Positions 4,148 to 31,306 of a stretch of DNA of 33,570 nucleotides are shown here, piece after piece. The DNA lies in the NCBI GenBank assembly GCA_015904055.1, contig JABMDE010000079.1, forward strand, positions 26,201 through 59,770, in the 5' to 3' direction. Every line of letters starts with the position of its first letter. The stretch's first letter is position 1. Made by a program: the position numbers and the translations under genes. Origin of the DNA: Nitrospira sp. (GTDB taxonomy: Bacteria; Nitrospirota; Nitrospiria; Nitrospirales; Nitrospiraceae). The notes under the pieces were generated by a model that made no database searches, had not been told where the DNA came from, and worked only from the letters and a program-made list of their open reading frames with translations.

Positions 4148-4170
4148 AACGTGACCGTTCCGGTCACGTT
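4148..4170. promoter_or_regulatory. Perfect 10-bp inverted repeat before the DUF2630 gene
   Basis: AACGTGACCG and CGGTCACGTT are exact inverted copies separated by TTC. The repeat ends 5 bases before the GGAGG ribosome-binding site of the next gene. It could be a repressor operator or a 5'-UTR hairpin controlling access to the ribosome site. There is no T-run after it, so it is not a typical terminator. Confidence 0.5.
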
Positions 4171-4187
4171 GCGCTGGAGGATTCAGC

Positions 4188-4433
4188 GTGGACAATCAAG
4201 TCGAAGATCAGCCGGTCCTCAATCATATTCAACGCCTTGTCGCAGAAGAACACCGATTGCACGAGCAAAGGGCACACTCCAAAGCCGATCGCAAGCGGCT
4301 CGATCAAGTCCAGGTTGAGCTCGATCAATGCTGGGACCTCTTGCGCCAGCGACGCGCCCTCCGTGAGGTCGGCCTTGACCCGGACGACGCGGAAGTTCGC
4401 CCGCCACAGGTTGTTGAGAATTATGAGCAGTAG
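4188..4433 (+). CDS. DUF2630 family small protein
   Basis: The protein is 81 residues and almost entirely helical and charged. It contains HIQRLVAEEHRLHEQ and the hallmark LDQCWDLLRQRRALRE followed by GLDPDDAEVRP, a pattern I recognise as the DUF2630 family. Its function is not established; the family is a short coiled-coil-like cytosolic protein. The start is GTG at 4188 with GGAGG 7 bases upstream. The gene sits alone behind the inverted repeat and has no clear operon partner. Confidence 0.85.
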   Translation: MDNQVEDQPVLNHIQRLVAEEHRLHEQRAHSKADRKRLDQVQVELDQCWDLLRQRRALREVGLDPDDAEVRPPQVVENYEQ

Positions 4434-4537
4434 GGATTGAGACGGGGTGACCACGAACCAAGCAAGCTCGACCGACATGCGCTACGAAATGGGTTTCGGC
4501 GCCGGTTTATTTCCAGAAATTCAGAAAGAGCGTATTC

Positions 4538-4666
4538 ATGAGGACCATGGCTAAACATAAATCCGATGACCTCAAGAGTTTCCTCGAAATTCCGTATGAC
4601 GAGCTCGAGGAAATGAATCTCAAGGCGGCGGAGCGCGCGGTGTTCCGTGAGCGCCCCCTGTCTTAA
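4538..4666 (+). CDS. Small ORF resembling a glutamine synthetase N-terminus (possible remnant)
   Basis: The ORF encodes 42 residues starting ATG at 4538, or the in-frame ATG at 4547. It reads MAKHKSDDLKSFLEIPYDEL then EEMNLKAAERAVFRERPLS. From memory, the IPYDELEEMNLKAKEQR pattern occurs at the N-terminus of some bacterial type I glutamine synthetases, where the catalytic domain follows. Here a stop follows at once and nothing catalytic is downstream. I read it as a decayed or duplicated 5' fragment, or as a free small protein. The ribosome site (AAAGAG) is weak. Confidence 0.4.
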   Translation: MRTMAKHKSDDLKSFLEIPYDELEEMNLKAAERAVFRERPLS

Positions 4667-4794
4667 CAGCCGAGGCGTAATTTTCTCACCCACCCCGATC
4701 TTCGCGCTGCAGAATGATACAGCTTGAACAGGCTTGCCTCGCTCATGCTGATGGAGGTATTATTCGTCCATTCCTGCCTCATTGAGGAGGTGCC

Positions 4795-5565
4795 ATGGCC
4801 ACGACGCGCACCCTTCCCAAATCGACACGGATCTCCCTCGACCGCAGCATCGAACGGATGCGGAAGCAGTTGGCTGAATTGGCCCAGTTTCTGGGCAAAG
4901 GGAAGCCAACCCGCAGTCTGGAGGAATTCGATCTGGAAACTGAACGGCTGATCAGCGATTTGCTGGGGCAGGCCTCCGACTTGCTGCATGCGTATGAATA
5001 CGCCGAACTGGGCGAGGCCGCCGGGTTGGTGAATATGACGGACGAGGCGCCGGAAGGCACCGGTATGGACAGTCATCGGCAGAGTCTCTTGCAACGATAC
5101 CGGGTGTTGGAAAGCTGCGTGTCGGAGCTTGAAGCGCGTCGGGCTGCCGAGCCGAAACAGAAGAAAGTCGGGCGGACTCTCATCGGCCCGCAAATCGCCG
5201 AGCATATGTCGCCGGAAGTCCGGAGTCTCTCGCAGGAGGCCACTCTGCGCGAAGCGGGGCAGCTCATGCAACAGTGGAAGCTCGGCTCACTCCTCCTGAC
5301 CGACAACCAGTCCTATGTCGGCTTCATCACGGATTCGGCGCTGGCACGTGAGGTCGTGGCCAACGGGATGAATCCCAACACCACTTCTGTCAAGACATGC
5401 ATGCGCAAGCCGGTCGTGGCCATCGAAGGCGATCGTCCGATCATTGATGCCGTGCGCATGATGAAAGACCAAGCCACCCGGCACCTGGCCGTGACGCAGG
5501 ACGGCCAGATTATCGGTGTGATTTCCGTCTCCAATATTCTCCGCTACTATTCAGGTGTGGTCTAA
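4795..5565 (+). CDS. CBS-domain protein with N-terminal helical region
   Basis: The protein has 256 residues. The first 120 or so form a charged helical region (SIERMRKQLAELAQFLGK; LQRYRVLESCVSELEARR). A pair of CBS domains follows at about 135-190 (IAEHMSPEVRSLSQEATLRE; LGSLLLTDNQSYVGFIT) and 195-256 (VKTCMRKPVVAIEGDRPIID; RHLAVTQDGQIIGVISVSN). CBS pairs bind adenine nucleotides and regulate partner proteins. The start has GAGGAGG 5 bases upstream. The gene appears complete, but its stop codon lies right at the join with the truncated RND gene on the other strand. Confidence 0.9.
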   Translation: MATTRTLPKSTRISLDRSIERMRKQLAELAQFLGKGKPTRSLEEFDLETERLISDLLGQASDLLHAYEYAELGEAAGLVNMTDEAPEGTGMDSHRQSLLQRYRVLESCVSELEARRAAEPKQKKVGRTLIGPQIAEHMSPEVRSLSQEATLREAGQLMQQWKLGSLLLTDNQSYVGFITDSALAREVVANGMNPNTTSVKTCMRKPVVAIEGDRPIIDAVRMMKDQATRHLAVTQDGQIIGVISVSNILRYYSGVV

Positions 5566-8044
5566 CCAGTTCGAGCACCGCAAGCCCTTCTTCCTTCGTA
5601 AAGCCGGGCTTCATGCCTCCGAAGATGCGGACGGCATTGCGCTGTTGGAAGCGGTTCAATGCACGTGGGGCGGTACTCGTTTCGATATGGGTAAACGTGG
5701 ACACCGGCACCAATTGGCCGCCCGGCGTCTTGATTTTTAAGTCCAGCAACGGATCGACCGTCGCACGGTCTTTATCACCCAGTTGCGGGATGACCTTATA
5801 GCTGCGGTCGAAATAGTTGAACCGGTTGACGTAAGCCCCGCCGAGCATCGTGCCCAGCTCGCGGCCAACTCCTGCGAGGTCAAATCCTAAGTCGGCCAGC
5901 CGTTCACGATCCAACACGACTCTGGCCTGGGGGAGGTCAATCTTGAGGTCCGTATCCACGTAGAGAAACTTGCCGCTTTGCCAGCCGGCCCCCAGCACGG
6001 TCCAGACAATTTCGAGCATCTGCTCAGCCGGCATGTCACTCTGGAGGATCAGCTCCACATCGTATTGGCCCGGTGTGGGGAGGGGGGGATCGAGTCGTGG
6101 AAACACCCGCAGTCCCGGCACTTGCAGCACGGCGCCATAGACGTCGTCGTACATCTTCTCGGTGGAGCGAGCTCGATCATGCCAATCCTTCGGAACGATC
6201 CCACCGAATCCGCCCCATGCAGTGATGAGTGCCCAGGTGTAGTCAGTTTCAGGAATGGCCGCGATGGCTTTGACGATCTGGAAATGTTGGCGATTGGTGG
6301 CTTGGACTGTGGAGTCCGGTGATGCTTCGAAGAAGAGGCTGATGTGGTTTTGGTCCTCCACAGGGGCCAGCTCCTGACGTGAAAAGTGATAAAGCGGCCA
6401 GGAGGCGATCACAATGAAGAAGGCGGCTGCCACGATACCCCAATGCATGGTGAGGGCAGTATCGAGCAGCGTGGCGTAGACTCCTCGCGCTTCTTCGAAC
6501 CGTCGGTTGACGAACATGGTCAAGCGACCTTCTTTGCCTCGAGGATGGACGAATCGGGAACTCATGACCGGCGACAATGTGATGGCCACGATTCCTGATA
6601 GGACTACGGAGACGGCGAGTGTCATGGCAAATTCCAAGAACAAGGAACCGGTGAGCCCACCTTGGAAACCGATGGGAGCGTAGACGGTGGCGAGTGTAAT
6701 CGTCATCGCGATGATCGGACCAAGGAGCTCGCGGGCGGCGGCTTGGGCCGCCTCGATGCGGGATTGGCCCATGCGTACATGCCGTTCCACGTTCTCAACG
6801 ACGACGATGGCGTCGTCCACGACCAAGCCGACCGACAGCACGATGGCGAGCAGCGTCAGAAGATTGAGACTGAAGCCGAACGCGGCCATGAAGAGGGCGG
6901 TGCCGATTAACGACACCGGAATGGCGACCAGCGGGACGAGGGCGGTGCGGACCGAGCCCATGAAGAGGAACACGACCAGCGCCACGATCAGGATCGTCTC
7001 CGCCAATGTTTTGGTAATCTCCGTCAGCGCGTTCCGGATGAACATCGTGCTGTCCCAAACGAGTTTCATGTCGATATCGTTCGGCAGGGTCGGCCGGATC
7101 CGGTCGATCTCATCGCGGAGCCGGTGCCCGACGTCGATTTCGTTCACGCCGGGCACGGCCCAGATGCCGAGGTAGACGCCTTCTGTTTCGTCGTACTTGG
7201 CGATCATGGTCGCTTCTTCGGCGTCCCGTTCAATCCGTGCCACGTCCTTGAGCCTCACAATGGCGCCGCCCCGGTCGGCCACAATCAGCTCCTCGAACTC
7301 ACCGGTCGAGCGAAGATCCGTATTGGCCAGGAGGTTGACCTGAACCAGATTGCCTTTCGTGCGTCCAACCGCAGCCAAATAATTGTTCCGCCGAAGCGCA
7401 CCCTGCACGTCGCCTGGTGAAAGATTGAAGGACGCGAGCCGGTCAGGATCGATCCAGATGCGCATCGCGACCTGTCGCTCACCTTCGAACGTGACTCGTT
7501 GCACACCGGGTAGCGTCGAAATCTGGGGCTGCAACGTACGCAAGAGCCAATCGGTGACCGCCGGGACGGTCCGTTCGTGAGAACTGAAGCTGAGATAGAA
7601 CGAGGCATAGGGACGGTCGGCTCGTTGGATTTCAATCGAGGAGGGTTCGGCCTCCGGTGGAAGTTCCGACTTCACCTGTTGCAACCGGGCCGTGACTTCT
7701 GCCAGGGCCGCCGTGCTGTTGTGGTTCAATTTCAAGTGGACGGTGACGGTACTGACGCCGGAACGGCTGGTGGACTCCACGTAATCGACGCCGCTGATGG
7801 CGGAGACGACCCGTTCGATCGGGGTACTGATGAATCCTCGAATCGTTTCCGCGCTGCCTCCGTAGTAGATGGTCGTGATGACCACCATGGAGTTTTCAAT
7901 CGTGGGATATTGCTGTACCGGCAGGGCCGTCATGGCCCGCCATCCGGCGAGCAGAATGACGAGATTGACGACGATGGCCAGGACCGGATGTTTAATGAAG
8001 ACATCGGTGAACGATGTCCGGGTTGTGTCCTGTGGCATGGCCAT
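5510..8044 (-). pseudogene. RND efflux pump copy A, C-terminus missing
   Basis: This is an HAE1-type RND inner-membrane pump. It shows TM1 (FIKHPVLAIVVNLVILLAGW), the PN1/PN2 porter region, TM2-6 with the proton-relay pair in GLVVDDAIVVVE (about residues 410-411), and then the second periplasmic loop. About 825 native residues remain, up to KEEGLAVLE. The frame then runs about 19 residues into the antisense of the CBS gene and stops at 5510. TM8-12, including the TM10 lysine of the proton relay, are absent against a usual length near 1030, so it should not pump. The preferred start is 8044, 4 bases after the adaptor stop. An in-frame ATG at 8122 overlaps the adaptor and is less likely. Confidence 0.85.
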
Positions 8045-8048
8045 GGGC

Positions 8049-9176
8049 TTACGGTGTAACGGCTGGACGATGCGTTTGTGTCGAGTGTTCTGCAGTGCCT
8101 GCAATAGCGACGAGGACTCCATCGCGAAGCTTAAAGGAGCCGAGCGCGGCGACCTGCTCGCCGGCCGCCAGTCCGGTATGGATCACAATCTCATCGCCGA
8201 ACATGGAGCCGCTGTGGACCTGACGGCTCTGGGCTCTCGTCCGGCCGTCTTTGTCCGTGGCGATGACGAACACCTGGTCACCCCCTGGTCCCTTACGGAG
8301 GGCGCTGACCGGGATGGCAATAACTGTTTGAGATGAGCCGACCGGTACCCGCACACGTACTGATGCGCCGGGTGTCGGGATATATTGGGTCTCCTCGATT
8401 CTGGCACGGACCATCGCATTCCTGGTCGTCGGGTCGACCCGTGAATCGAGTGCGATGATTTTCGCTGGGATCATCGGGGAATCACCGGCTGCAAAGACCT
8501 CCACGACTTCGCCGACGTGTAAGCCCGCCGCAATCTGTTGGGCGACAGAAAAGTCGACATGGACTGCGTCGCCGACGCCCTGCAGGGTCGTCAGGAGCGT
8601 ACCTTCGTCCAGATATTGGCCGGGATGGACATCGGCCATGCCAATCCTCACGCGGAATGGAGCACGGATTGTCTTTTTGGCGATGAGTGCTTTGGTGCGG
8701 ACAATCTGGGCTTGGGCGACATCCAGGTCTGCGCGTGCACGATCGACTTCTTCCTGCGTGGTGGCGAGTTCCTGATTGAGACGCTGTCTGCGATTGAGGA
8801 CGGTTTTAGCAAGTGCCACCTGCGCTTCTTGGGCTTGGAGATCAGCTTCCTCGACCGACACGTCGAGAGCGACCAACAGGGTCCCTGCCTCGACGATGTG
8901 CCCGGGCGTCAAGTAAACGTCGTGGACTGTCCCGGCCAGTTCGTTCTTCAGCGTGATTGAACGCAACGCCAGGACCGTTCCAATTGATGTCGTGGTCTGA
9001 CGATGGTCGATTGCCCGCGCGACGGCGACGGTCACCGACTCCATTGGCTCAGGCTGATGGGACGAAGCGGCCTGTTCGCCTTGGACCGATTCGTATTTCC
9101 ATGCGGCCAGACCGAGGCCTACCAGGAGTATGAACAGGACCAGGAAGACCGATCCGAGTCGATTCTGACGATTCAT
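8049..9176 (-). CDS. RND periplasmic adaptor (HlyD/AcrA family), copy A, full length
   Basis: The protein has 375 residues from the ATG at 9176. It has an N-terminal membrane anchor (SVFLVLFILLVGLGLAAW), a lipoyl half-motif (LKNELAGTVHDVYLTPGHIV) and a helical hairpin (VALAKTVLNRRQRLNQELATT). The second lipoyl half is IRAPFRVRIGMADVHPGQYL, followed by beta-barrel and membrane-proximal domains. It links the inner-membrane pump to an outer-membrane channel. The frame is open to 9329, but the upstream part looks non-native. The pump gene follows after 4 bases, indicating translational coupling, but that partner is truncated and no channel gene is adjacent. It is divergent from tag. Confidence 0.9.
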   Translation of the reverse strand: MNRQNRLGSVFLVLFILLVGLGLAAWKYESVQGEQAASSHQPEPMESVTVAVARAIDHRQTTTSIGTVLALRSITLKNELAGTVHDVYLTPGHIVEAGTLLVALDVSVEEADLQAQEAQVALAKTVLNRRQRLNQELATTQEEVDRARADLDVAQAQIVRTKALIAKKTIRAPFRVRIGMADVHPGQYLDEGTLLTTLQGVGDAVHVDFSVAQQIAAGLHVGEVVEVFAAGDSPMIPAKIIALDSRVDPTTRNAMVRARIEETQYIPTPGASVRVRVPVGSSQTVIAIPVSALRKGPGGDQVFVIATDKDGRTRAQSRQVHSGSMFGDEIVIHTGLAAGEQVAALGSFKLRDGVLVAIAGTAEHSTQTHRPAVTP

Positions 9177-9385
9177 AGGAAACACCGCGAAGTGTGTGAC
9201 ATGGGAACCCGTGGCCGTGACGGTCTCAATTGCATAGGGCGTAGCCGAACACTCCGTCTCATCCCCGCCTTCTTGCCGTCGAAACGACACCGACATGGGC
9301 TGGGTGCTGGAACGGGTACGCCGGATCATGTTATCAAATTGTTGGACTCGATAGCTCTAGCCAGATGGAAAGGACGGAACTGTCT

Positions 9386-9976
9386 ATGCCGAGGACATTT
9401 ACACAACCGGCAGCTATTCCGATCCGTTGCGCATGGGTCGGCGATAAGCCGCACATGATCCGCTATCACGATCGGGAGTGGGGCAAGCCCGTGCATCGTG
9501 ACCGGAAGCATTTCGAGATGCTGTTGCTTGAAGGCGCGCAGGCCGGGCTGACGTGGGACACGATCTTGCGGAAGCGTGAGGGATATCGAAAAGCGTTTGC
9601 CGGCTTCGATCCGAAAAAAGTGGCGCGGTTCACGGCCAAGACGAAGGCTGAGTTGCTGCAGAATTCCGCCATTGTTCGGAACCGGCTCAAGATCGATGCC
9701 GCGATCACCAACGCCAAGGCGTTTCTCGCCGTCCAACAAGAGTTCGGGTCATTCGATGCGTATGTGTGGTCGTTTGTGGCGGGAGAGCCTATTGTCCAAC
9801 GTTGGAAGCGGATGACAGATATTCCAGCGACCAACCCCGTGAGCGACACGTTATCCAAGGACCTCAAGCAGCGAGGCTTTCGCTTTGTCGGCAGCACGAT
9901 TCTCTATGCCTACATGCAGGCAGTCGGTCTGATCAACGATCACATGGCGGATTGTTTTCGGTCATCCTGTCGGTGA
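9386..9976 (+). CDS. tag: DNA-3-methyladenine glycosylase I
   Basis: This enzyme excises 3-methyladenine from alkylated DNA. From the ATG at 9386 it has 196 residues, close to E. coli Tag. The zinc-snap ligands match the family: Cys15 (RCAWVG), His28 (YHDREWG), and His186 and Cys190 (NDHMADC, four apart as in E. coli). The substrate-pocket segment LEGAQAGLTWDTIL and the KRGFxFVGST-like motif are present. An in-frame ATG at 9365 exists, but AAGGACGGA sits better for 9386. It is divergently transcribed from adaptor A across about 200 bases. A 3' fragment of a paralogue lies at 21275-21490. Confidence 0.95.
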   Translation: MPRTFTQPAAIPIRCAWVGDKPHMIRYHDREWGKPVHRDRKHFEMLLLEGAQAGLTWDTILRKREGYRKAFAGFDPKKVARFTAKTKAELLQNSAIVRNRLKIDAAITNAKAFLAVQQEFGSFDAYVWSFVAGEPIVQRWKRMTDIPATNPVSDTLSKDLKQRGFRFVGSTILYAYMQAVGLINDHMADCFRSSCR

Positions 9977-9994
9977 ACGGTGTCTCTCTCCACC

Positions 9995-10145
9995 ATAGAG
10001 AGCGGCTTGAGACGTGAGTAGGTATTTGCCTTCACTTCTACACTTCGCATCATTCAGCAGATCCCGTGTTTCTTCGAAAACAGCGAGTGGCAACATCGGC
10101 ATGGCTCTTGCCGTTATCGGCAATCCTGAGTCCTGGCAGGGAACT
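9995..10145 (+). repeat. Conserved leader of PilZ-like gene 1 (copy also at 33217)
   Basis: This stretch matches 33217-33384 closely, starting at ATAGAGAGCGGCTTGAG and running into the start codon. The second copy carries an extra block of about 17-20 bases, so upstream frame is not conserved. This argues for a noncoding leader and for starts at 10146 and 33385. CTCTC/GAGAG just before it can form a small hairpin. Confidence 0.65.
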
Positions 10146-10520
10146 ATGGCGAGTCGTCTCGATGAGATGGAACCACCGTCACGATTGGAGCGTGATACGT
10201 CGTTCTCCAATCGTCGCCAGGAAGCTCGGGTCGAGGATCGCCATTGGTACACCTACGAGATCTATGAATCGCACCTCGATGGGGCCGAAGCAGTTGTGGA
10301 AGGCAGGTTGCTGAGCATGAATCGAAGTGCACATGGCATCCTTCTCTTGATGAGAGAGTCGCCACAGGCCCGGCAATTGATCGGTTTGTACAATCCCCGG
10401 CTTGGATGGCAACGGGCAACGATGATGTATGAAGTATGTTGGGTGCGGGCATTGCCGATCGATTCCGATGGCGGCCAGTTTCTGGTCGGGTGCCGGCTCA
10501 CCACAGCCATGTCACGATAG
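10146..10520 (+). CDS. PilZ-like domain protein 1
   Basis: The protein has 124 residues. The c-di-GMP-binding signature of PilZ domains appears as an Arg-rich element (NRRQEAR) and, about 35 residues later, an [D/N]xSxxG match (NRSAHG). Strands typical of the fold follow ([28 protein letters not shown]). The start at 10146 is preferred over an open frame to 10014: AGGGA sits well, and homology with the copy at 33385 shows indels upstream. PilZ proteins act as c-di-GMP effectors or adaptors. No motility or synthesis genes are nearby, so the target is unknown. Confidence 0.75.
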
Positions 10521-10639
10521 TATTTCTCCTGCCTCATTGATTCCAGTGTTGAGTTCCCTTTCGTTCGACCACAACAGAAGTGCTCTGCGGTAACGTGCAG
10601 GGAATTTCACTTGCCCCAACATGATTTCTAAGGGGACCT

Positions 10640-10747
10640 GTGCCATATTTGCAGAAGGCAATCAACGGTGCGTTCATCAAAGAGAGCGAACGAGACGCCA
10701 TGAGTCTGGCGAGCGCCATCCATTTCCATGCAGGGGCTGAGGGATGA
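10640..10747 (+). CDS. Small ORF coupled to the monooxygenase gene
   Basis: The ORF encodes 35 residues from GTG at 10640, with AAGGGG about 5 bases upstream. It reads VPYLQKAINGAFIKESERDA then MSLASAIHFHAGAEG. Its stop overlaps the monooxygenase start (ATG at 10744, TGA at 10745-10747), the classic arrangement for translational coupling. I do not recognise the peptide. It may be a leader peptide or a small protein, or the match may be chance. Confidence 0.35.
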   Translation: MPYLQKAINGAFIKESERDAMSLASAIHFHAGAEG

Positions 10748-11901
10748 TGCCGGAGACGATGCCGGTCCAGTGCTGTATTGCCGGCGGGGGACCAGCCGGT
10801 ATGATGCTGGGCCTGCTATTGGCTCGCGCTGGAGTCTCGGTACTGGTGCTTGAAAAGCACGCCGACTTCCTCCGCGACTTTCGTGGAGATACGCTTCACC
10901 CTTCGACATTGGAGATCATGCATGAGCTGGGGGTACTCGAACGATTTCTCCGATTGCCGCATCAGAAAGTGTCTCGTATCAACGGGCGGTTCGGAGATTT
11001 GGAGTTCACCGTAGCGGACTTTTCGCATCTGCCGACGCAGTGCCGCTATATCGCCTTCATGCCGCAGTGGGATTTCCTGAACTTTCTCGTCGAAGCAGGA
11101 AGCCAGTATCCTACTTTTCAGATTCGTATGAATGCAGAGGTGACGGATCTGATTGAAGAGGGAGATTCGGTCGTCGGGCTTCACGCCAAGACCCCGAACG
11201 GACCGTTGGAGGTTCGGAGCACGCTGGTTGTGGGAGCCGATGGCCGGCATTCGGTCGTCCGTGCAAAGGCGGGGCTGTTCGTAGATGAATTCGGCGCGCC
11301 CATGGATGTTTTATGGTTCCGGCTTTCACGCAAACCGCAGGATCCAATCGATCCGATGGGCCGGTTCGATATCGGTCGAATTTTCATCATGTTGAATCGG
11401 GGTGAGTACTGGCAATGCGGTTTCGTCATTGCCAAGGGGTCGCTGGGGGAGGTTCAGGCTAAGGGACTGGCGGCTTTTCGAGACAGTGTGGCTGCGGTGG
11501 CGCCTTTTGCCGCCGACCGGGTCCATGAGCTGCGAGAGTGGGACCCGATCAAACTTTTGACTGTGCAGGTGGATCGGTTGCGACGATGGTATCGGCCGGG
11601 CTTGCTCTGTATCGGCGATGCCGCGCATGCCATGTCGCCGGTCGCCGGGGTGGGGATCAATTTGGCGATTCAGGATGCCGTGGCGACTGCCAATCTACTG
11701 GCCAGTGCGCTACGCGACAATCGATTGACGGTTGAGGATTTGCATCGCGTACAGGCACGGCGGGCCTGGCCTACGGACATGACGCAGCGAGTGCAGCTTC
11801 TGATCCAGAATCGCATCATCAAGTCAGTGCTCACGACGTCAGCCCGGTTACAGTCTCCTCTCCCGCTTTTCCGTTTCTCCAACGGTTCCCCGCCAGGCTG
11901 A
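10744..11901 (+). CDS. FAD-dependent monooxygenase/oxidoreductase, apparent frameshift at 3' end
   Basis: The gene belongs to the PHBH/UbiH-like flavin hydroxylase group. It has the GxGxxG dinucleotide fold at residues 14-19 (GGGPAG), the DG motif near 164-167 (GADGRHS), and the GD motif near 290-295 (IGDAAHAMSP, then GVGINLAIQDA). The native substrate is probably a hydrophobic or aromatic compound but is unknown. The frame ends in FRFSNGSPPG. The next frame reads LQRFPARLIGMGFLPEH then IQTPAV, stopping at 11946-11948, which is the expected family C-terminus (PARLxGxGxxPEH). One extra C near 11876 would restore it. Loss of the last 20 or so residues might be tolerated, or it may be a sequencing error. 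Confidence 0.85.
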   Translation: MMPETMPVQCCIAGGGPAGMMLGLLLARAGVSVLVLEKHADFLRDFRGDTLHPSTLEIMHELGVLERFLRLPHQKVSRINGRFGDLEFTVADFSHLPTQCRYIAFMPQWDFLNFLVEAGSQYPTFQIRMNAEVTDLIEEGDSVVGLHAKTPNGPLEVRSTLVVGADGRHSVVRAKAGLFVDEFGAPMDVLWFRLSRKPQDPIDPMGRFDIGRIFIMLNRGEYWQCGFVIAKGSLGEVQAKGLAAFRDSVAAVAPFAADRVHELREWDPIKLLTVQVDRLRRWYRPGLLCIGDAAHAMSPVAGVGINLAIQDAVATANLLASALRDNRLTVEDLHRVQARRAWPTDMTQRVQLLIQNRIIKSVLTTSARLQSPLPLFRFSNGSPPG

Positions 11902-11948
11902 TCGGTATGGGATTCCTGCCCGAACATATACAAACCCCTGCCGTCTGA

Positions 11949-12278
11949 TTCTGTGCAGTAGCCCGTCTTTTCATCCGGTTCATGCGGCTGTTTTGTGGAG
12001 GGGGGTGTGAAGGCTACACCATTCTTTTTGTAGGCTGCCAAGTACGAATAGGAATGGCCTTGTAAATCATATGGATAGGACATGCTGGACGATGGGGATG
12101 AAGCCCTGTCCCTTCATAGTGGCGGAACATGGCTGCGTGATTTGAGCGAGATTTCAAAGAAATCATCAGGAATTCCGTACATGGCATAGTGGACTATTCC
12201 AACGGTACGACACTTGCTCACACATTGTGTACTGTGTAGGAACTTCTCCAGCCGCTGTCTTGATGGGAGGTGAGCCCG
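11949..12278. other. Intergenic stretch without a supported gene
   Basis: I see no convincing coding frame here. A small perfect hairpin, GATTTC-AAA-GAAATC, lies near 12149-12163. Just before 12279 there is a strong GGGAGGTGAG ribosome site. Promoter elements cannot be named with confidence. Confidence 0.4.
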
Positions 12279-12706
12279 ATGAGAATTGGAACTCGCGAGG
12301 TTGTTCATATATCCCACTCCTATGTTGCGGAGTATGTGCAAGCCGGGATTCAGATGGGGATGTTGAGCGGATCTGTCACCGCTCCGTTTCCAACTCGTCG
12401 GCGAGAAGAACGGGTCACGGAGCAGAGGGTCTGCACGTATGAGCTCTGTGAAGCGATCGACGAGGCAGGGGTGACGATCCAGCAGGGTGAAGCCTATAGC
12501 CTCAATCGAAGCTCACACGGCATTCTCTTATTCATGGGCGCGGTCCCCCGCAAACAACAGCTTCTCGAAATTCATGCAACTGGCGTCGGTCGCTGAATTT
12601 ATATGAAGTGCAATGGACGAAGCCTGTGACTGTGGATTCCCGCAATCACCTCTTTCTCGTAGGATGCCGGTTGATGTTTGGGCCTTCCCGATACTGGGCC
12701 TTCTAG
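12279..12706 (+). pseudogene. PilZ-like domain protein 2, interrupted by a one-base frameshift
   Basis: The start is ATG at 12279 with GGGAGGTGAG upstream. The frame reads to TGA at 12594-12596 and carries the PilZ signature: TRRREER and the [D/N]xSxxG match in NRSSHGILLFM. The next frame continues from 12596 to TAG at 12704-12706 as NLYEVQWTKPVTVDS then FLVGCRLMFGPSRYWAF. This aligns with the C-terminus of PilZ-like protein 1 (YEVCW...FLVGCRL). One extra G in CGCTGAATTT (about 12594) restores a single 142-residue protein. It is either a young pseudogene or a sequence error. Confidence 0.75.
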
Positions 12707-13009
12707 TCCGCATTCTCACGAGACTGTCGGTGTTGACTAGCGCCATTGCGGTCGACGGCATCAATTGGTGCTCGACTTTCCCTTCCTCCTCATCGCCCGC
12801 TCGTGCGGAGGCCTTCTCAAACCAGCCTGATAACTAGGTGGCATAGCACCTCCATTGTCCCTATCAACCGTGTGAAGTCGGCTTCGAAAAGGCAACGGAA
12901 TAAAATACAATACAATAGAATGTAAGCATGCTCGCGGTACCCTGGGAATTGTAGAAGATAGAGGACACGTACCCTAGAAGTTCATTGTGCCTAGAGAGGA
13001 GGATGTTGT
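12707..13009. other. Intergenic region with AT-rich tract upstream of secreted protein gene
   Basis: No gene is supported. An AT-rich run around 12898-12924 contains repeated AATACAAT units that could supply a -10 element, but no matching -35 hexamer is clear. AGGTG-GCATAG-CACCT near 12836-12851 forms a short hairpin. The 3' end holds the GAGAGGAGG ribosome site of the next gene. Confidence 0.35.
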
Positions 13010-13447
13010 ATGTACCGTGTGTCGATGCAAGGTTTAGCGCTGATGATGGCGTTGGCCTTCAGTGTATCCACGTTTGCGCAGGTTCCGGCGTCCGATCCTA
13101 CCGCGCTATCCCCGGCTGTTCCTGCTTCCGTGCCTTCGACAGCCCCGGCTCCTCCGATGCCTTCTTCGATACCCGATGAGTCCTCCGGTGCGACGAAGGG
13201 TGAAGGCGAGAAACGTATGAAGGGCGATCGCCACCCCGACAAGTCTCAGCGGAAAGCTGAAAAGGAGCGTCGGAAGGCTGAACGGAAAGCCGGAAAAGAG
13301 CGCCGGAAGGCCGAGCGGAAAACGGAGAAAGACCAGCGGAAATCCGATAGGAAAGATCGGAAGCATGACAAAGATGACGACGACGACGAGGATGATGACG
13401 ATTATGACAAGAAGGACCGGAAGCGTGGAGGTCAGGGACGCCGTTGA
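13010..13447 (+). CDS. Exported, highly charged low-complexity protein
   Basis: The protein has 145 residues. Residues 1-23 are a signal peptide with probable cleavage after TFA (A23). A Pro/Ala/Ser linker covers about 25-60. Lys/Arg/Glu-rich repeats follow (variants of ERRKAERK and EKDQRKSDRK, about 75-122), then an acidic block (DDDDDEDDDDYD) and a basic tail. No enzyme motif is visible. Such polyampholyte periplasmic proteins may bind metals, nucleic acid or envelope polymers; that is inference. GAGAGGAGG precedes the ATG, and a good terminator follows, so it is a single-gene unit. Confidence 0.8.
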   Translation: MYRVSMQGLALMMALAFSVSTFAQVPASDPTALSPAVPASVPSTAPAPPMPSSIPDESSGATKGEGEKRMKGDRHPDKSQRKAEKERRKAERKAGKERRKAERKTEKDQRKSDRKDRKHDKDDDDDEDDDDYDKKDRKRGGQGRR

Positions 13448-13472
13448 TCAGTGAACGATGACTCGTCATGCA

Positions 13473-13513
13473 GCGAGGCTATAGTTCTCAAAGCCTGTAG
13501 CCTCGCGTTTTTC
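13473..13513 (+). terminator. Intrinsic terminator of the charged-protein gene
   Basis: GCGAGGCTA (13473-13481) pairs perfectly with TAGCCTCGC (13498-13506). The loop is 16 bases, and GTTTTTC follows directly. It lies 26 bases after the stop codon at 13447. Confidence 0.85.
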
Positions 13514-13581
13514 ATTGATCTGCTCCTCCCATTGCTCCCTGCCCTAAGCCCCGTTAGAATCCGCCCGCCAGTGTTGTGATG

Positions 13582-13773
13582 AGCCCGCATTATTCATGAA
13601 CACTTCTGCTGCAATCGCCGATCCGCTGTTCCGACAAGCCTGCGGCCGGCGGGCTCGCCCCTCGGACCTTCGACATACTGAACGAGTATGCCTTAGGTCC
13701 TCCGGGCTCCGCGCGCCGTTCTCACGACGCGGCTTGGCGATTTCGCGACGAACTGCCATGAATAATGTGGGCT
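13582..13773. repeat. 192-bp imperfect palindrome with 17-bp terminal inverted repeats (MITE-like)
   Basis: The left end agcccgcattattcatg (13582-13598) and right end catgaataatgtgggct (13757-13773) are inverted copies matching at 16 of 17 positions. The interior is also roughly palindromic. AATCGCC-type blocks recur on both arms, and the centre folds as CATACT (13674-13679) with AGTATG (13685-13690) inside GGACC/GGTCC. No coding capacity is evident. The shape suits a non-autonomous mobile element or large intergenic hairpin. It ends 13 bases before the symporter start, so its right end abuts the ribosome site GGGTGGAG. Confidence 0.7.
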
Positions 13774-13786
13774 AGGGTGGAGCCGC

Positions 13787-15202
13787 ATGCTGCTTAGTTT
13801 TGTCATTCTCTATCTCCTTATCTCTGTCGGTATCGGGCTGTTTGCTGCGACTCGTGTAAAAAGCTCTAAGGATTTCGCCGTGGCGGGGCGCAGTTTGCCC
13901 TTGCCCATCGTCACAGCGACTGTTTTCGCAACCTGGTTCGGTGCCGAGGCCGTGCTCGGTATCTCGGCGACATTCGTCAAGGAAGGATTGCGCGGGGTCG
14001 TTGCCGATCCGTTCGGGTCGAGCATGTGTCTCATTCTGGCAGGACTGTTCTTTGCGCCGCGGTTATACCGCCTGAACATTCTCACGGTGGGCGACTACTA
14101 CCGGCTGCGCTATGACCGTCGCATTGAAGTGCTCTGCACGCTTGCCGTCGTCGTGTCGTATCTGGGATGGGTCGCAGCCCAGTTCAAAGTGCTTGGATTG
14201 GTGCTCAATGCTGTGACGGATGGCGCAATCAGCCAGTCCGTCGGCATTATGATCGGCGCGGCAATCGTCCTGCTGTACACGACTTTCGGTGGGATGTTTT
14301 CTGTGGCCATTTTGGATTTCGTCCAGATTTCCGTGATCATGGGAGGGCTGCTCTACATTGCATCCGTCGTGAGCGGGCTGGCCGGCGGAGTAGGCACTGT
14401 GATCGATCATGCGGCCGCCGCGGGTAAGCTGAATCTCTTTCCACCGGCGACACTGACGGCCTGGATTCCCTTCATCGGCGCCTGGATGACGATGATGCTG
14501 GGATCGATTCCTCAACAGGATGTGTTTCAACGCATCACCTCGGCGAAGGACGAGCGTACGGCGGTGCGCGGGTCGCTGCTCGGCGGAACACTCTACTTCG
14601 GGTTTTGTTTCGTGCCGATGTTTCTGGCCTATGCGGCGACGTTGGTGGATCCGGCGAAGTTCGGCGCGTTGTTGGAGCAGGATTCACAGCTGGTATTGCC
14701 GACATTGATTTTACAGCACACGCCGATGGCGGCGCAGATCGTATTCTTCGGGGCCATTCTCTCTGCGGTCATGAGTTGTTCCAGTGCGACGCTGCTGGCG
14801 CCGTCGGTGGCGCTAAGCGAGAATGTCATTAAGCCGATGCTCTCGCATGTGAATGATTCGGAGTTTCTCCGTCTGATGCGGGTCGTACTGGTCGGATTTG
14901 CCGGAGTGGTGTTGGGTATTGCCCTCTGGTCGGATGCCTCGATCTATAAAATGGTGGTGAATACATACGAAGTGACGCTGGTTGCCGCGTTTGTCCCGCT
15001 GTGTGCGGGACTCTACTGGAAACGCGCCACGACGCAAGGCGCCCTATGCTCTATCGTCGCAGGCCTGACCGGCTGGCTGGCGCTGGAATTGTTCGCCTCG
15101 CCTGATTCCATCTGGCCGCCGCAGCTTATTGGATTCTTCATGGCCGGCGCCGGCATGATCGCGGGATCACTGTGGCCGTCTCAAGTATCTGCTGCGAAGT
15201 AA
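13787..15202 (+). CDS. Sodium:solute symporter (SSS) family transporter
   Basis: The protein has 471 residues and about 12-13 hydrophobic segments. The N-terminus shows the family pattern: VILYLLISVGIGLFAA, then SSKDFAVAGRSLPLPIV and ATWFGAEAVLGIS. Other typical SSS segments are VGDYYRLRYDRRIEVL, TTFGGMFSVAILDFVQ (sodium-site helix region), and GSIPQQDVFQRITSAKDERT. The substrate cannot be told from sequence; family members carry sugars, amino acids, organic acids or vitamins. Translation likely starts at ATG 13787 behind GGGTGGAG. The palindromic element directly upstream must contain or displace the promoter. The gene converges with the ABC-F fragment. Confidence 0.92.
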   Translation: MLLSFVILYLLISVGIGLFAATRVKSSKDFAVAGRSLPLPIVTATVFATWFGAEAVLGISATFVKEGLRGVVADPFGSSMCLILAGLFFAPRLYRLNILTVGDYYRLRYDRRIEVLCTLAVVVSYLGWVAAQFKVLGLVLNAVTDGAISQSVGIMIGAAIVLLYTTFGGMFSVAILDFVQISVIMGGLLYIASVVSGLAGGVGTVIDHAAAAGKLNLFPPATLTAWIPFIGAWMTMMLGSIPQQDVFQRITSAKDERTAVRGSLLGGTLYFGFCFVPMFLAYAATLVDPAKFGALLEQDSQLVLPTLILQHTPMAAQIVFFGAILSAVMSCSSATLLAPSVALSENVIKPMLSHVNDSEFLRLMRVVLVGFAGVVLGIALWSDASIYKMVVNTYEVTLVAAFVPLCAGLYWKRATTQGALCSIVAGLTGWLALELFASPDSIWPPQLIGFFMAGAGMIAGSLWPSQVSAAK

Positions 15203-15241
15203 CGTGCCGACGCGAGCTGACGTGGATCGTGGGCGGTACGA

Positions 15242-16336
15242 CTATTGCTGCACGCCTGTAGGTTGCACGCGTTTTTGCTCTAATTCAGCCCATCGTGCGT
15301 AGAGTTGCTCGACGATCGCCTGCGCGGCTTCAAGTGCGGCATAGCGGGTGCGCAGTGCCTCGGCATCGGCTACGATCGCGGGATCGTTGGCTGCGGCCTG
15401 GCAGGTTGCGACGGTCGATTCTGCCTTGGCGATCTTTTGCTCAATCGTATCCCACTCCTTTTGTTCCCGATAGGTCAGTCCCTTGCGTTTCGGAGCGGAC
15501 GACGGGGTCTCGATATCTGCCTTGGCAGAGCGGTTCTGCGTTGGTCGGCGAGTAGCTTGTTCGTTCCGCGCTTGGGCCGCTTCCCATTGCGCATAGTCGG
15601 CAAACCATTCGGCGCGGCCGTTGCCGTCCAGGGCCAGCAGCATGGTGGAGACGCGATCCAGCAACCACCGGTCATGGGTTACCAGCACCAGCGCGCCGGG
15701 AAACTCCATCAAACTGTCTTCGAGGACATCCAACGTCGGGATATCCAGATCGTTAGTGGGCTCGTCCAGGATCAAGAGGTCAGCCGGTTGGAGCATGAGC
15801 CGCGCGATGAGCAAGCGGGCCTGTTCGCCGCCTGACAATCGAGAGACCGGCAGATCCAATTGTTCAGGTTTGAATAAAAACCGTTTAGCCCATGAGACAA
15901 GATGTACTGACCGGTCCTGGTACACGACGGCGTCGCCATGGGGGGCGAGCGAGCGGCGGAGCGTAGCCTGCTGGTTCAGCGAATCACGGTGCTGTTCGAA
16001 TGTGACGACACGAAGTTTGTCTGCGCGTGTGATGGTCCCGGTATCCGGCTCGAGCGTTCCAGCCAACAGCTTGAGCACCGTTGTTTTGCCGCTTCCGTTG
16101 GGGCCCAGCAATCCGAGCCGCTGCCCCGGCCCCAGGCACAACTCGAGATCGCGGATAATCGGTTTGCCGCCTAACGAGGTGCCGAGCTCCGTGGCCACAA
16201 CCAGTTGCTTCGAGCGCCGTCCGGATGAGGTAAAGTCGATGCCTGCTGTTCCCTGTTCCCGCCGCGCTTCGATGTCGCTCAATTCGTCGATCAATCGTCC
16301 CGCTGAATCGATCCGCGACTTGGCCCACCAATTGGC
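15242..16336 (-). pseudogene. ABC-F ATPase (Uup-like), N-terminal half missing
   Basis: This is the C-terminal half of an ABC-F protein, normally about 600 or more residues with two ABC domains. It keeps the second ATPase domain: Walker A (GPNGSGKTT), signature (LSGGEQARLLIARLML), Walker B (LLILDEPTNDLD) and the His switch (LVTHDRWLL). The Uup-type C-terminal coiled coil follows (LTYREQKEWDTIEQKIAKAE). Upstream, the frame runs through WAKSRIDSAGRLIDEL. At 16334-16336 it meets RND copy B, where an in-frame stop closes it. Only a TTG at 16294 could initiate. ABC-F proteins act on ribosomes or in genome stability; this fragment is probably non-functional. Confidence 0.85.
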
Positions 16337-18662
16337 CGCCCGGCGTTTTGATTTTTAAGTCCAGCAACGGATCGACCGTCGCACGGTCCTTGTCGCCCAG
16401 TTGCGGGATGACTTTATAGCTGCGATCGAAATAGTTGAACCGGTTGACGTAGGCCCCGCCGAGCATCGTGCCCAGTTCACGGCCAACTCCTGCGAGGTCG
16501 AGTCCCAAGTCGGCCAGCCGCTCACGATCCAACACGACTCTGGCCTGGGGGAGATCGATCTTGAGGTCTGTATCCACGTAGAGAAACTTGCCGCTTTGCC
16601 AGCCGGCTCCCAGCACGGTCCAGACAGTTTCGAGCATCTGCTCAGCCGGCATGTCACTCTGGAGGATCAGCTCCACATCGTATTGGCCCGGTGTGGGGAG
16701 GGGCGGGTCCAGTCGTGGGAACACCCGCAGTCCCGGTACTTGTAGCACGGCGCCATAGACGTCGTCGTACATCTCCTCGGTGGAGCGAGATCGATCATGC
16801 CAATCCTTTGGAACGATCCCACCGAAGCCGCCCCACGCGGTGGTGAGTGCCCAGGTGTAGTCGGTTTCAGGAATGGCCGTGATGGCTTTGACAATCTGGA
16901 AATGTTGACGATTGGTGGCCTGGACCGTGGAGTCCGGCGATGCTTCAAAGAAGAGGCTGATGTGGTTTTGGTCCTCCACAGGGGCTAGCTCTAGGCGTGA
17001 AAAGTGATAGAGCGGCCAGGAGGCGATCACAATGAAGAAGGCTGCCGCCACGATGCCCCAACGCATGGTGAGGGCAGCGTCGAGCAGCTTGGCATAAATC
17101 CCTCGCGCTTCTTCGAACCGTCGGTTGACGAACATGGTCAAGCGACCTTCTTTGCCTCGGGGATGGACGAATCGCGAACTCATCACCGGCGACAGTGTGA
17201 TGGCTACGATTCCCGATAGAACTACGGAGACGGCGAGTGTCATGGCAAATTCTAAGAACAAGGAACCGGTGAGTCCACCTTGGAAACCGATGGGGGCGTA
17301 GACGGTGGCGAGTGTAATCGTCATGGCGATGATCGGACCAAGGAGCTCCCGGGCGGCGGCTTGGGCTGCCTCGATCCGAGATTGGCCCATGCGCACATGC
17401 CGTTCCACGTTCTCAACGACGACGATGGCGTCGTCCACGACCAGGCCGACTGATAGGACGATGGCGAGCAGCGTCAGGAGATTGAGGCTGAAACCGAACG
17501 CGGCCATGAAGAGGGCCGTGCCGATTAATGATACCGGTATGGCGACCAGCGGGACGAGGGCGGTGCGGACCGAGCCCATGAAGAGGAACACGACCAGCGC
17601 GACGATCAGGATCGTTTCCGCCAATGTCTTGGTAATTTCCGTCAGCGCGTTCCGGATGAACATTGTGCTGTCCCAGACGAGTTTCATGTCGATATCGCTC
17701 GGCAGGGCCGGCCGGATTCGGTCGATCTCATCGCGGAGCCGGTGTCCGACGTCGATTTCGTTTACGCCGGGCACTGCCCAGAGGCCGAGGTAGACGCCTT
17801 CCGTCTCGTCGTACTTGGCGATCATGGTCGCTTCTTCGGCGTCCCGCTCAATCCGTGCCACATCCTTGAGCCGCACAATGGCGCCGCCTCGGTCGGCCAC
17901 AATCAGCTCTTCAAACTCACCGGTCGAGCGAAGATCCGTGTTCGCCAGAAGGTTGACCTGAACCAGATTGCCTTTCGTGCGTCCAACCGCAGCCAAATAA
18001 TTGTTTCGTCGAAGCGCACCCTGCACGTCGCCTGGTGAGAGATTGAAGGACGCGAGCCGGTCAGGGTCGATCCAGATGCGCATCGCGACCTGTCGCTCAC
18101 CCTCGAACGTGACTCGTTGCACACCGGGTAGTGTCGAGAGCTGGGGCTGCAACGTACGCAAGAGCCAATCGGTGACCGCCGGGACCGTCCGTTCGTGAGA
18201 ACTGAAGCTGAGATAGAACGAGGCGTAGGGTCGATCGGCTCGTTGGATTTCAATCGAGGATGGTTCAGCCTCCGGTGGAAGTTCCGACTTTACCTGTTGC
18301 AACCGGGCCGTGACCTCTGCCAAGGCCGCCGTGCTGTTGTGGTTCAACTTCAAGTGGACGGTGACGGTGCTGACGCCGGCACGGCTGGTTGACTCCACAT
18401 AGTCGATGCCGCTGATGGCGGAGACGACCCGTTCGATCGGGGTACTGATGAAGCCTCGAATTGTTTCCGCGCTGCCTCCGTAGTAGATGGTCGTGATCAC
18501 CACCATGGAGTTTTCAATTGTGGGATATTGTTGTACCGGCAGTGCCGTCATGGCCCGCCATCCGGCAAGTAGAATGACGAGATTGACGACGATGGCCAGG
18601 ACCGGATGTTTGATGAAGACATCGGTGAACGATGTCCGGGTTGTATCCTGTGGCATGGCCAT
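16334..18662 (-). pseudogene. RND efflux pump copy B, C-terminus missing
   Basis: This is a paralogue of copy A with roughly 17 amino-acid changes over about 776 shared residues (for example GIDY for GVDY, and RPALPSDID for RPTLPNDID). It is intact from MAMPQDTTR (18662) to LKIKTPGGQLV. It then joins the ABC-F fragment at CCAATTGGCCGCC, and the frame reads about 115 meaningless residues to 15984. The DD proton-relay pair in TM4 is present; TM8-12 and the TM10 lysine are absent. There are no internal stops or frameshifts before the break. It starts 4 bases after the adaptor-fragment stop, as in copy A. Confidence 0.85.
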
Positions 18663-18666
18663 GGGC

Positions 18667-19075
18667 TTAGGGTGTGGCGGCTGGACGGTGCGCTTGTGTC
18701 GAGTGCTCTGCAGCGTCTGCAATGGCGACGAGGACTCCATCGCGAAGTTTAAAGGAGCCCAGCGCGGCGATCTGTTCGCCGGCCGCCAGTCCGGTATGGA
18801 TTACAATCTCATCGCCGAACATGGAGCCGCTTTGGACCTGACGGCTCTGGGCTCTCGTCCGCCCGTCTTTGTCCGTGGCAATGACGAACACCTGGTCTCC
18901 TGCTGGTCCCTTGCGGAGGGCGCTGACCGGGATGGCAACGACTGTGTGAGATGAGCCGACCGGTACTCGCACACGGACCGATGCGCCGGGCGCCGGGATA
19001 TATTGGGTCTCCTCGATCCTGGCGCGGACCATCGCATTCCTGGTCGTCGGGTCAACCCGTGAATCGAGCGCGATG
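18667..19075 (-). pseudogene. RND adaptor fragment, copy B (last 135 residues)
   Basis: The fragment matches residues from IALDSRVDPTTRNAM to the end of adaptor A (IPAPGASVRVRVPVG; FGDEIVIHTGLAAGEQ). The anchor, lipoyl and hairpin parts are gone. The break is at GCGATG (19070-19075), directly after the codons for IALDS read leftward. Upstream the frame enters RND copy C out of phase, giving a spurious start at 19149. No working adaptor can be made. Confidence 0.85.
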
Positions 19076-19076
19076 A

Positions 19077-20863
19077 GCCGCGATCGCTTTGACGATCTGG
19101 AAGTGTTGACGATTGGTGGCCTGGACCGTGGAGTCTGGCGATGCTTCAAAGAAGAGGCTGATGTGGTTTTTGTCCTCCACAGGGGCTAGCTCTAGGCGTG
19201 AAAAGTGATAGAGCGGCCAGGAGGCGATCACAACGAAGAAGGCTGCCGCCACGATGCCCCAACGCATGGTGAGGGCAGCGTCGAGCAGCTTCGCATAAAT
19301 CCCTCGCGCTTCTTCGAACCGTCGGTTGACGAACATGGTCAAACGACCTTCTTTGCCTCGGGGATGGACGAATCGGGAACTCATGACCGGCGACAGTGTG
19401 ATGGCCACGATTCCCGACAGGACTACGGCGACGGCGAGTGTCATGGCGAATTCTAAGAACAAGGAACCGGTCAGCCCGCCTTGGAAACCGATGGGGGCGT
19501 AGACGGTGGCGAGTGTAATCGTCATCGCGATGATCGGACCAAGGAGCTCACGGGCGGCGGCTTGGGCTGCCTCGATGCGAGATTGGCCCATGCGCACATG
19601 CCGTTCCACGTTCTCAACGACGACGATGGCGTCGTCCACGACCAAGCCAACCGACAGCACGATCGCGAGCAGCGTCAGGAGATTGAGACTGAAGCCGAAC
19701 GCGGCCATGAAGAGGGCGGTGCCGATTAATGACACCGGTATGGCGACCAGCGGGACGAGAGCGGTGCGGACTGATCCCATGAACAGGAACACGACCAGCG
19801 CGACGATCAGGATCGTCTCCGCCAACGTTTTGGTAATTTCCGTCAGCGCGTTCCGGATGAACATCGTGCTGTCCCAGACGAGTTTCATGTCGATATCGTT
19901 CGGCAGGGTCGGCCGGATCCGGTCGATCTCATCGCGGAGCCGGTGTCCAACGTCGATTTCGTTCACGCCGGGTACTGCCCAGAGGCCGAGGTAGACGCCT
20001 TCGGTCTCGTCATACTTGGCGATCATGGTCGCTTCTTCGGCGTCCCGCTCAATCCGTGCCACGTCCTTCAGCCTCACAATGGCGCCGCCTCGGTCAGCCA
20101 CAATCAGTTCCTCAAACTCACCAGTCGAGCGAAGATCCGTATTGGCTAGGAGGTTGACCTGAACCAGATTGCCCTTCGTGCGTCCAACCGCAGCTAAATA
20201 ATTGTTTCGTCGAAGCGCACCCTGCACGTCGCCTGGTGAGAGATTGAAGGACGCGAGCCGGTCAGGGTCGATCCAGATACGCATCGCGACCTGTCGCTCC
20301 CCCTCGAACGTGACTCGCTGCACACCGGGTAGCGTCGAGAGCTGGGGCTGCAACGTACGCAAGAGCCAATCGGTGACCGCCGGGACCGTTCGCTCGTGAG
20401 AACTGAAGCTGAGATAGAACGAGGCGTAGGGTCGATCGGCTCGTTGGATTTCAATCGAGGAGGGTTCGGCCTCCGGTGGAAGTTCCGACTTCACCTGTTG
20501 CAACCGGGCCGTGACCTCTGCCAAGGCTGCCGTGCTGTTGTGGTTCAACTTCAGGTGGACGGTGACGGTGCTGACGCCGGCACGGCTGGTTGACTCCACG
20601 TAATCGATGCCGCTGATGGCGGAGACGACCCGTTCGATCGGGGTGCTGATGAAGCCTCGAATCGTTTCCGCGCTGCCTCCGTAGTAGATGGTCGTGATAA
20701 CCACCATGGAGTTTTCGATCGTGGGATATTGCTGTACCGGCAGTGCCGTCATAGCCCGCCATCCGGCGAGCAGGATGACGAGATTGACGACGATGGCCAG
20801 GACCGGATGTTTGATGAAGACATCGGTGAACGATGTCCGGGTTGTGTCCTGTGACATGGCCAT
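19077..20863 (-). pseudogene. RND efflux pump copy C, truncated after TM7 region
   Basis: About 595 residues remain, from MAMSQDTTR (20863) to QHFQIVKAIAA, near the start of the second periplasmic loop. It then runs seven residues into adaptor-fragment B DNA and stops at 19052. It keeps TM1-6 and the DD pair. It shares most substitutions with copy B (GIDY, SRAG, GIYAKLLDAALTMRWG) but agrees with copy A at RPTLPNDID, so it looks mosaic. Private changes include EDKNH and FFVVIAS. The frame is undamaged up to the break. Confidence 0.85.
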
Positions 20864-20867
20864 GGGC

Positions 20868-21275
20868 TTAGGGTGTGGCGGTTGGACGGTGCGTTTGTGT
20901 CGAGTGCTCTACAGAGCCTGCAATGGCGACGAGGACTCCATCGCGAAGTTTAAAGGAGCCGAGCGCGGCGATCTGCTCACCGGCCGCCAGTCCGGTGTGG
21001 ATCACAATCTCATCGCCGAACATGGAGCCGCTTTGGACCTGACGGCTCTGGGCTCTCGTCCGGCCGTCTTTGTCCGTGACAATGACGAACACCTGGTCTC
21101 CTGCTGGTCCCTTGCGGAGGGCGCTGACCGGGACGGCAACGACTGTTTGAGATAAGCCGACCGGCACCCGCACGCGTACCGATGCGCCGGGCGCCGGGAT
21201 ATATTGGGTCTCCTCGATCCTGGCGCGGACCATCGCATTCCTGGTCGTCGGGTCAACCCGTGAATCGAGCGCGAT
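20868..21275 (-). pseudogene. RND adaptor fragment, copy C (last 135 residues)
   Basis: This is the same C-terminal portion as fragment B, and it is cut at the same base: GCGATG at 21271-21276 corresponds to 19070-19075 and to 8452-8457 in copy A. Beyond the cut lies the 3' part of a tag gene on the other strand. The coding part is free of stops and has the usual 4-base gap to RND copy C. Confidence 0.85.
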
Positions 21276-21490
21276 GGTCGTTTGTGGCGGGAGAGCCTAT
21301 CGTCCATCGTTGGAAGCGGATGACAGACGTTCCGGCCACTAATCCCATCAGCGACACGTTATCCAAGGACCTCAAGCGGCGGGGGTTTCGTTTCGTCGGC
21401 AGCACGATTGTCTATGCCTACATGCAGGCAGTCGGCTTGGTCAACGACCATACGGAGGAGTGTTTCCGAAAGCTCACGCCAATTAGCTAG
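21275..21490 (+). pseudogene. tag: 3' fragment of a second tag gene
   Basis: The fragment encodes WSFVAGEPIVHRWKRMTD onward through GFRFVGSTIVYAYMQAVG and NDHTEECF, ending at TAG 21488-21490. About 70 residues align with the C-terminus of the intact tag gene, with a different tail (RKLTPIS). The zinc His and Cys of the C-terminus persist, but the N-terminal Cys/His pair and the active-site region are missing. The open frame back to 21182 runs through adaptor antisense and is not native. A roughly 1.3-kb deletion relative to locus A would create this join. Confidence 0.85.
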
Positions 21491-21722
21491 CGCGGGGGAA
21501 GTAACGACGTGGTTCCGCTCCCTATACGTTCTTTCCGGCCGATCGACGTGAGAGCCTAACCAAAAGTACACCTGCTTGCGCGGCTCGCGGATGAGAACTG
21601 GACTGACGAGTAGAAAGGAGGATGGCTTAGGCATCTCTCGGCGTCGAGTGGCGCTATAGCCATTGAAAAAACAGCTCCAGTGAGCGAATAATGGGTGCCT
21701 TGTCGCTCTGGGGAGAATGCCA
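21491..21722. other. Intergenic region upstream of the sigma54 activator
   Basis: No gene is supported. The only clear signal is GGGGAG at about 21710-21715, the ribosome site for the activator. No confident promoter hexamers were found. Confidence 0.4.
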
Positions 21723-31305: not shown

Positions 31306-31306
31306 G

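Follow-up and report, generated by a model that had tools for sequence, protein, structure and literature searches.

Three truncated copies of an RND efflux pump locus in a Nitrospira contig, and apparently recurrent pump loss with adaptor retention in the genus

We analyzed a 33,570-base stretch of contig JABMDE010000079.1 (hereafter the window; G+C content 57.6%), which is Nitrospira-like and carries one adaptor-pump locus three times on its minus strand, at 93.6–95.2% identity when the window is compared with itself. The pump is a resistance-nodulation-division (RND) permease of the HAE-1 (AcrB/MexB) type, and each of its three copies (A, B, and C) is missing its C-terminal part, breaking at a different point and into a different neighboring gene. 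To judge from their substitution pattern, the copies diverged while intact and were broken recently, rather than decaying slowly. Our account, held tentatively, is that an amplified pump operon may have been inactivated in the recent past by non-homologous deletions whose joins lie in the chromosome, and we lean slightly toward it over a chimeric metagenome contig. Elsewhere in Nitrospira, loss of this pump with retention of its adaptor seems to recur.

Pump copy A (5570–8044, minus strand; codons 1–825, within an open reading frame (ORF) at 5510–8122) breaks at the 3′ end of an intact CBS-domain gene on the plus strand (4795–5565), and its adaptor (8049–9329, minus strand, 426 aa) is the sole complete one of the three, scoring 174.6 with the TIGR01730 (RND_mfp) model, above the curated cut-off of 94.9. 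Copy B (16326–18662, minus strand; codons 1–779, ORF 15984–18740) abuts an ABC-F (Uup/EttA-like) gene on the same strand that has lost its N-terminal part (15242–16325), and copy C (19075–20863, minus strand; codons 1–596, ORF 19052–20863) abuts a C-terminal fragment of adaptor B (18667–19075, minus strand). Adaptor C, likewise a C-terminal fragment (20868–21276, minus strand), is joined to a 3′ fragment of tagI, the gene for DNA-3-methyladenine glycosylase I, on the plus strand (21277–21490). The codon limits come from alignment to a complete orthologue of 1034 aa at locus L001 in genome G001 (Nitrospira sp. bin.260; 96% identity at the protein level), homology to which stops at window positions 5570 (A), 16326 (B), and 19073–19075 (C). 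In the self-comparison, B (16326–19076) matched A (5708–8458) at 93.7% identity over 2751 gap-free nt, and C (19073–21276) matched both B (16873–19075, 95.2%) and A (6255–8457, 93.6%) with a single gap, placed at the join. The reading frames are clean, with no indel across the stretch common to A, B, and C. A preliminary description of this DNA had already recognized three partial copies of one RND/adaptor locus with otherwise clean frames, and its estimates agree well with ours: about 825, 776, and 595 pump residues kept, and joins at 5565, 16334, 19076, and 21275, right to within about 10 nt. Its distinct breakpoints and neighbors (CBS gene antisense, ABC-F gene, adaptor fragment) also hold, and the break of adaptor C into the tagI fragment is to be added to them.

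In the L001 pump the aspartate-pair motif of transmembrane helix (TM) 4 lies at residue 406, the TM7 motif at 533, the TM8 motif at 855, and the TM10 lysine at 921, the motifs being assigned to helices by what we take to be the AcrB topology. Because homology ends at residues 825, 779, and 596, before 855 and 921, all three copies are without TM8–12 and the TM10 lysine, as the preliminary description had stated. All three fragments match Pfam ACR_tran (596, 573, and 521 bits against a cut-off of 28) and keep the TM4 aspartate pair, and the complete L001 pump can be aligned to AcrB chains over residues 13–1011; these are features of HAE-1 permeases. Unlike such permeases, with 12 helices in two halves, the fragments end before the TM8 motif (on the same presumed topology), and the lysine of the proton relay falls past their ends; even the complete orthologue does not reach the curated cut-off of any NCBI model it matched (best RND_permease_2, NF033617, 993.6 of 1250). 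A review gives the proton relay of RND pumps as an Asp-Asp-Lys triad (PMC8277102), and by that known mechanism the three truncated ORFs cannot act as proton-driven pumps. They are most likely dead as pumps and fresh pseudogenes. The complete adaptor A may remain in use, possibly together with a different RND permease, for instance a paralogue. The ABC-F fragment has one ABC domain, not the two of ABC-F (Uup/EttA) proteins, and scored 256.2 of 900 with the Uup model.

Several measures indicate purifying selection in the broken pumps. Synonymous divergence (dS) and the ratio of nonsynonymous to synonymous rates (ω) were 0.247 and 0.040 for A–B, 0.241 and 0.041 for A–C, and 0.196 and 0.027 for B–C. 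Changes private to one pump copy, scored over codons 1–595 against the other two copies and L001, and over codons 596–772, in A and B only, against the other of the two and L001, were overwhelmingly synonymous (synonymous to nonsynonymous 40:6 in A, 44:2 in B, and 25:4 in C), whereas neutrality would make about 0.71 of them nonsynonymous (P = 3e-16, 7e-22, and 2e-10, respectively), and the neutral part of the private branch is at most about 6% for B and 15% for C. The broken ABC-F gene is, by the same kind of count, constrained like intact ones (37:10, vs. 39:9 and 28:6 in intact relatives); the adaptor fragments B and C differ by 10 synonymous and 9 nonsynonymous changes (P = 0.02 under neutrality), and the tagI fragment has four private changes only, all synonymous. 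Given this pattern and the lack of indels in the shared stretch, the pumps and the ABC-F gene look functional until recently, which bears out the earlier view that this is not ordinary decay. The same view had held that one gene was truncated serially: three truncations there are, but a serial process is too simple, since copies that diverged while intact imply young breaks that need not be serial, and A looks like a plain deletion into the CBS gene. A tree unites the three copies, separate from L001 and L068 (support 94), and pairs B with C (95); they could thus have been amplified within the lineage.

Comparison with G001 placed the copies in an ancestral order. This genome matches window positions 1662–16324 colinearly (sigma factor, pump, adaptor, tagI, PilZ-like, FAD enzyme, PilZ-like, SSF transporter, and ABC-F), with the pump and the ABC-F gene (614 aa) complete, which puts copy A at the ancestral site. 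Part of the ancestral segment is present a second time, in diverged form, as B, C, and the tagI fragment. At L068, SSF and ABC-F adjoin the adaptor and pump. G001 differs from the window in that the CBS gene does not follow the pump and in that the spacing between adaptor and tagI is 4.8 kb longer; at 9359–9364 in the window, the divergent start codons of these two genes are about 35 nt apart. The complete tagI (9365–9976, plus strand) is followed by a PilZ-like stretch (9995–10331), a second copy of which (86% identity; 33217–33570, plus strand) lies 11.7 kb past the tagI fragment and perhaps belongs to the second segment with B, C, and that fragment. The intervening 11.7 kb (21490–33216) contain a second RND operon, complete and including an outer-membrane factor, as well as a TerB-like gene and a GAF/sigma-54 regulator; they separate two elements whose counterparts adjoin at 9960–9995. 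In G001, too, 125 nt of the tagI 3′ end recur beyond PilZ (L093, C5:178549–178673; 82%), so the stretch may have been duplicated already at an earlier time.

The four joins lie at about 5569, 16325, 19075, and 21276, with 0–3 nt of overlap between the partners, which makes them resemble products of end joining or illegitimate recombination. Homology of pump A ends 4 nt past the stop codon of the CBS gene, and since a CBS gene lies downstream of a complete pump in six relatives (L003, L005, L009, L012, L042, and L075), the break of A looks like a deletion from such an order. Pump B ends within the ABC-F gene; pump C ends inside adaptor B, at a point that we call q; and adaptor C ends at the same q (within a base) and is followed by the 3′ third of tagI. 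The CBS segment has about 93% identity to relatives in which the pump has about 82%; a foreign origin was considered for it and dropped, because most of these relatives, compared with one another, also show better conservation of CBS than of the pump. The history that we propose is that an adaptor-pump operon of the HAE-1 type would have been amplified in this Nitrospira lineage, its copies remaining intact and selected until they were about 5% diverged, and that recent non-homologous deletions would then have removed the pump C-terminus, in A into the CBS gene, in B into the ABC-F gene, and in C into the next adaptor, with those in B and C also taking the adaptor N-terminus. Three points of this history are inferred: a chromosomal location of the joins, their formation by end joining, and a loss that was favored or tolerated. 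A gene for Ku, which could have made such joins, was found in 10 of 79 Nitrospira genomes, G001 included.

Several observations weigh against this history. Four recent breaks within 16 kb are many, and a common adaptor base at two joins, reached after 99 identical nt, is unexpected in a real chromosome; no longer run of identity exists between copies B and C than the 99 nt of their adaptors that precede q. The closest genome with a long colinear stretch, G001, is without CBS after the pump, so the deletion in A needs an ancestor arranged like the other relatives. Private changes in adaptor fragments B and C together (3 synonymous, 6 nonsynonymous) are compatible with neutrality, the fragments being short. 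The B|ABC-F and B|C joins have the geometry of head-to-tail tandem-duplication joints, and were they scars of the duplication itself, each truncation would date back to the origin of the copies, which conflicts with the low ω. Finally, when 200-nt probes across the four joins were searched against the 79 Nitrospira genomes (up to 10 candidates scored per genome), no match spanned any of them. The probes matched 51, 50, 42, and 31 genomes, always on one side of the join, with an overhang of at most 7 nt apart from one weak 73% match to an adaptor in G066 that reached 16 nt beyond, and strict patterns for the B|C and C|tagI joins were found in none of the 79 genomes.

Because B|C and C|tagI share one adaptor base after the 99-nt run, an assembly artifact is an almost equal rival, and we give it a probability somewhat short of even: same-locus pieces from at least three co-occurring strains would have been joined into a chimeric metagenome contig, an arrangement present in no cell. 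All the pieces belong to one locus and resemble alleles of different strains (about 5% apart, with ω of 0.03–0.04), 99 nt is also a usual assembler k-mer size, the joins recur in none of the genomes searched, and a run of Ns, an assembly gap, interrupts this pump in one relative (L035, genome G011). Against a chimera, k-mer assembly does not normally produce joins with 0–3 nt or no overlap, and copy A is joined to the very gene that neighbors it in the six relatives. Nor do the breaks lie in unusually conserved DNA (percentiles 0.12–0.83 on the retained side, across 70 loci), and we ruled out that specially conserved sequence had tangled the assembly graph there. The grouping of A, B, and C apart from L001 and L068 also speaks against a chimera, although strains of one species would group likewise. 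Protein searches, in which the best 120 of about 8000 scored matches were considered, used a database clustered at 90% identity and are uninformative on complete A, B, or C alleles. The tail of copy A occurred in one protein only among the best 120 matches, P0001, which is the window's own copy A and the only match there above 96% identity; the best complete pumps among the matches listed were 94–96% identical, and complete alleles could be hidden by the clustering, in clusters such as those of P0001 (9 members) and P0002 (38 members), so they are not shown to be absent. Among the shorter proteins listed, P0071 (819 aa) is labeled partial.

Compared with inactivation of an amplified operon by later deletions, it is improbable that nested tandem duplications, of a 10.6-kb unit for A/B and a 2.2-kb unit for B/C, truncated the copies at birth and that selection kept proteins of TM1–7. 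The copies do stand head to tail in the same orientation (offsets 10618 and 2201), as such duplications require, the branching order is A,(B,C), and the truncated ORFs are under strong purifying selection. Selection would have had to act, however, on pumps from which the proton-relay lysine and TM8–12 are gone, on half an ABC-F gene that is constrained like intact ones, and on leaderless adaptor fragments (B–C P of 0.02, private changes compatible with neutrality); moreover, the second segment does not continue at its far end but stops within tagI, and the array has no complete outer copies, pump A and adaptor C/tagI being broken at its ends. Ordinary old pseudogenes from one duplication, in neutral decay, find a point in their favor in the intact relatives of the broken genes and are very improbable, since neutrality is excluded by the substitution pattern for pumps A, B, and C and the ABC-F gene, and the frames are open with no indel in the shared stretch.

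C-terminal truncations equivalent to those of the window were not found among relatives in a pump survey that covered 60 places at ≥81% identity (up to 10 candidates scored per genome). The pump extends to residue 1005 or further at 51 of the 60; seven of the nine short places run off a contig end, one (L004, contig C15 of G010) gives way after residue 906 to other DNA, which contains a stop codon and by eye resembles an insertion sequence, and one (L061, G032) is split over two overlapping frames. Two-frame pumps occur at both L061 and L062, with unequal identity in their parts (73% then 89%, and 75% then 85%), which suggests from the alignments that they are mosaic genes.

The survey of adaptors (72 places at ≥65% identity in 53 genomes) revealed a different kind of loss. 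A pump lies within 500 bp at 56 of the 72 adaptor places and is missing from that distance at 16. We read 10 of these 16, in ten genomes, leaving out six, several of which are at a contig start or end: L120–L129, in G067, G068, G066, G059, G057, G036, G054, G055, G027, and G058. At all ten, the 3.8–10 kb read downstream contain no orthologous pump beyond an N-terminal remnant (up to about 30 codons), so that 10 of the 53 adaptor-carrying genomes have one adaptor locus without its pump; at several, the first codons of the deleted pump remain readable. Relative to L005, loci L123, L124, L128, and L129 show a clean 3.1-kb deletion (about 10171–13309) from pump codon 29 to beyond the stop codon. 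The break in L120 is slightly earlier, and in an alignment by eye L121 resembles L120 and the break in L125 is near codon 13. Nine of the ten orphan adaptors are uninterrupted, the tenth (L129, G058) being split by a frame change, and median ω was 0.16 for seven orphan adaptors and 0.11 for eight paired ones.

In the adaptor tree the nine uninterrupted orphans form three groups, with weak backbone support (37–68). Forcing all nine together was rejected (approximately unbiased (AU) test P = 0.02; Shimodaira-Hasegawa (SH) test P = 0.024), which speaks against a single orphan clade; when the groups were joined in pairs, two pairings were rejected by AU (0.014 and 0.048) and not by SH (0.22 and 0.17), and one was allowed (AU 0.38). 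With a single origin rejected, at least two pump losses are implied, unless the adaptor gene moved between lineages. Of the nine genomes whose orphan is uninterrupted, eight carry a related pump of 84–85% identity elsewhere; it was not found in the ninth, G059. The window is in the same end state as the orphan loci: one adaptor in it is whole and every copy of this pump is broken. Under the proposed history, deletion in the window would have arrived where these other Nitrospira stand. It is possible, and we advance it with reserve from these comparisons, that the adaptor acts independently of a pump or works with a different one, its own pump having been repeatedly discarded (at least twice by the AU test, besides the three copies in the window) with the adaptor left intact and selected.

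Parts of this picture recall known systems. Adaptor A scores as a member of the TIGR01730 adaptors, which it resembles in this respect; unlike those paired with a permease, the adaptor at ten Nitrospira loci stands without a pump in the sequence read downstream. The review cited above mentions orphan adaptor structures and TriA/TriB (PMC8277102), and in two-adaptor systems such as TriABC, as here, adaptor genes do not match pumps one to one; in contrast to those systems, the orphan state in Nitrospira arises from pump deletion, apparently more than once in one genus. The titles and abstract openings returned by a literature search contained no report of repeated pump deletion leaving orphan adaptors in one genus. 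The window resembles bacterial tandem duplications and deletions by illegitimate recombination in its head-to-tail copies and short overlaps at joins, and differs in that copies about 5% diverged are nevertheless constrained, as expected neither of fresh duplicates nor of old pseudogenes.

If the arrangement is real, it would be an amplified efflux operon caught while being switched off, its broken genes still in the condition in which selection kept them; if it is a chimera, it would be a warning that metagenome contigs can string together alleles of one locus without shared k-mers. The pattern across the genus matters more: with the adaptor retained in several lineages without its pump, one can test whether different pumps share RND adaptors or these proteins do something else.

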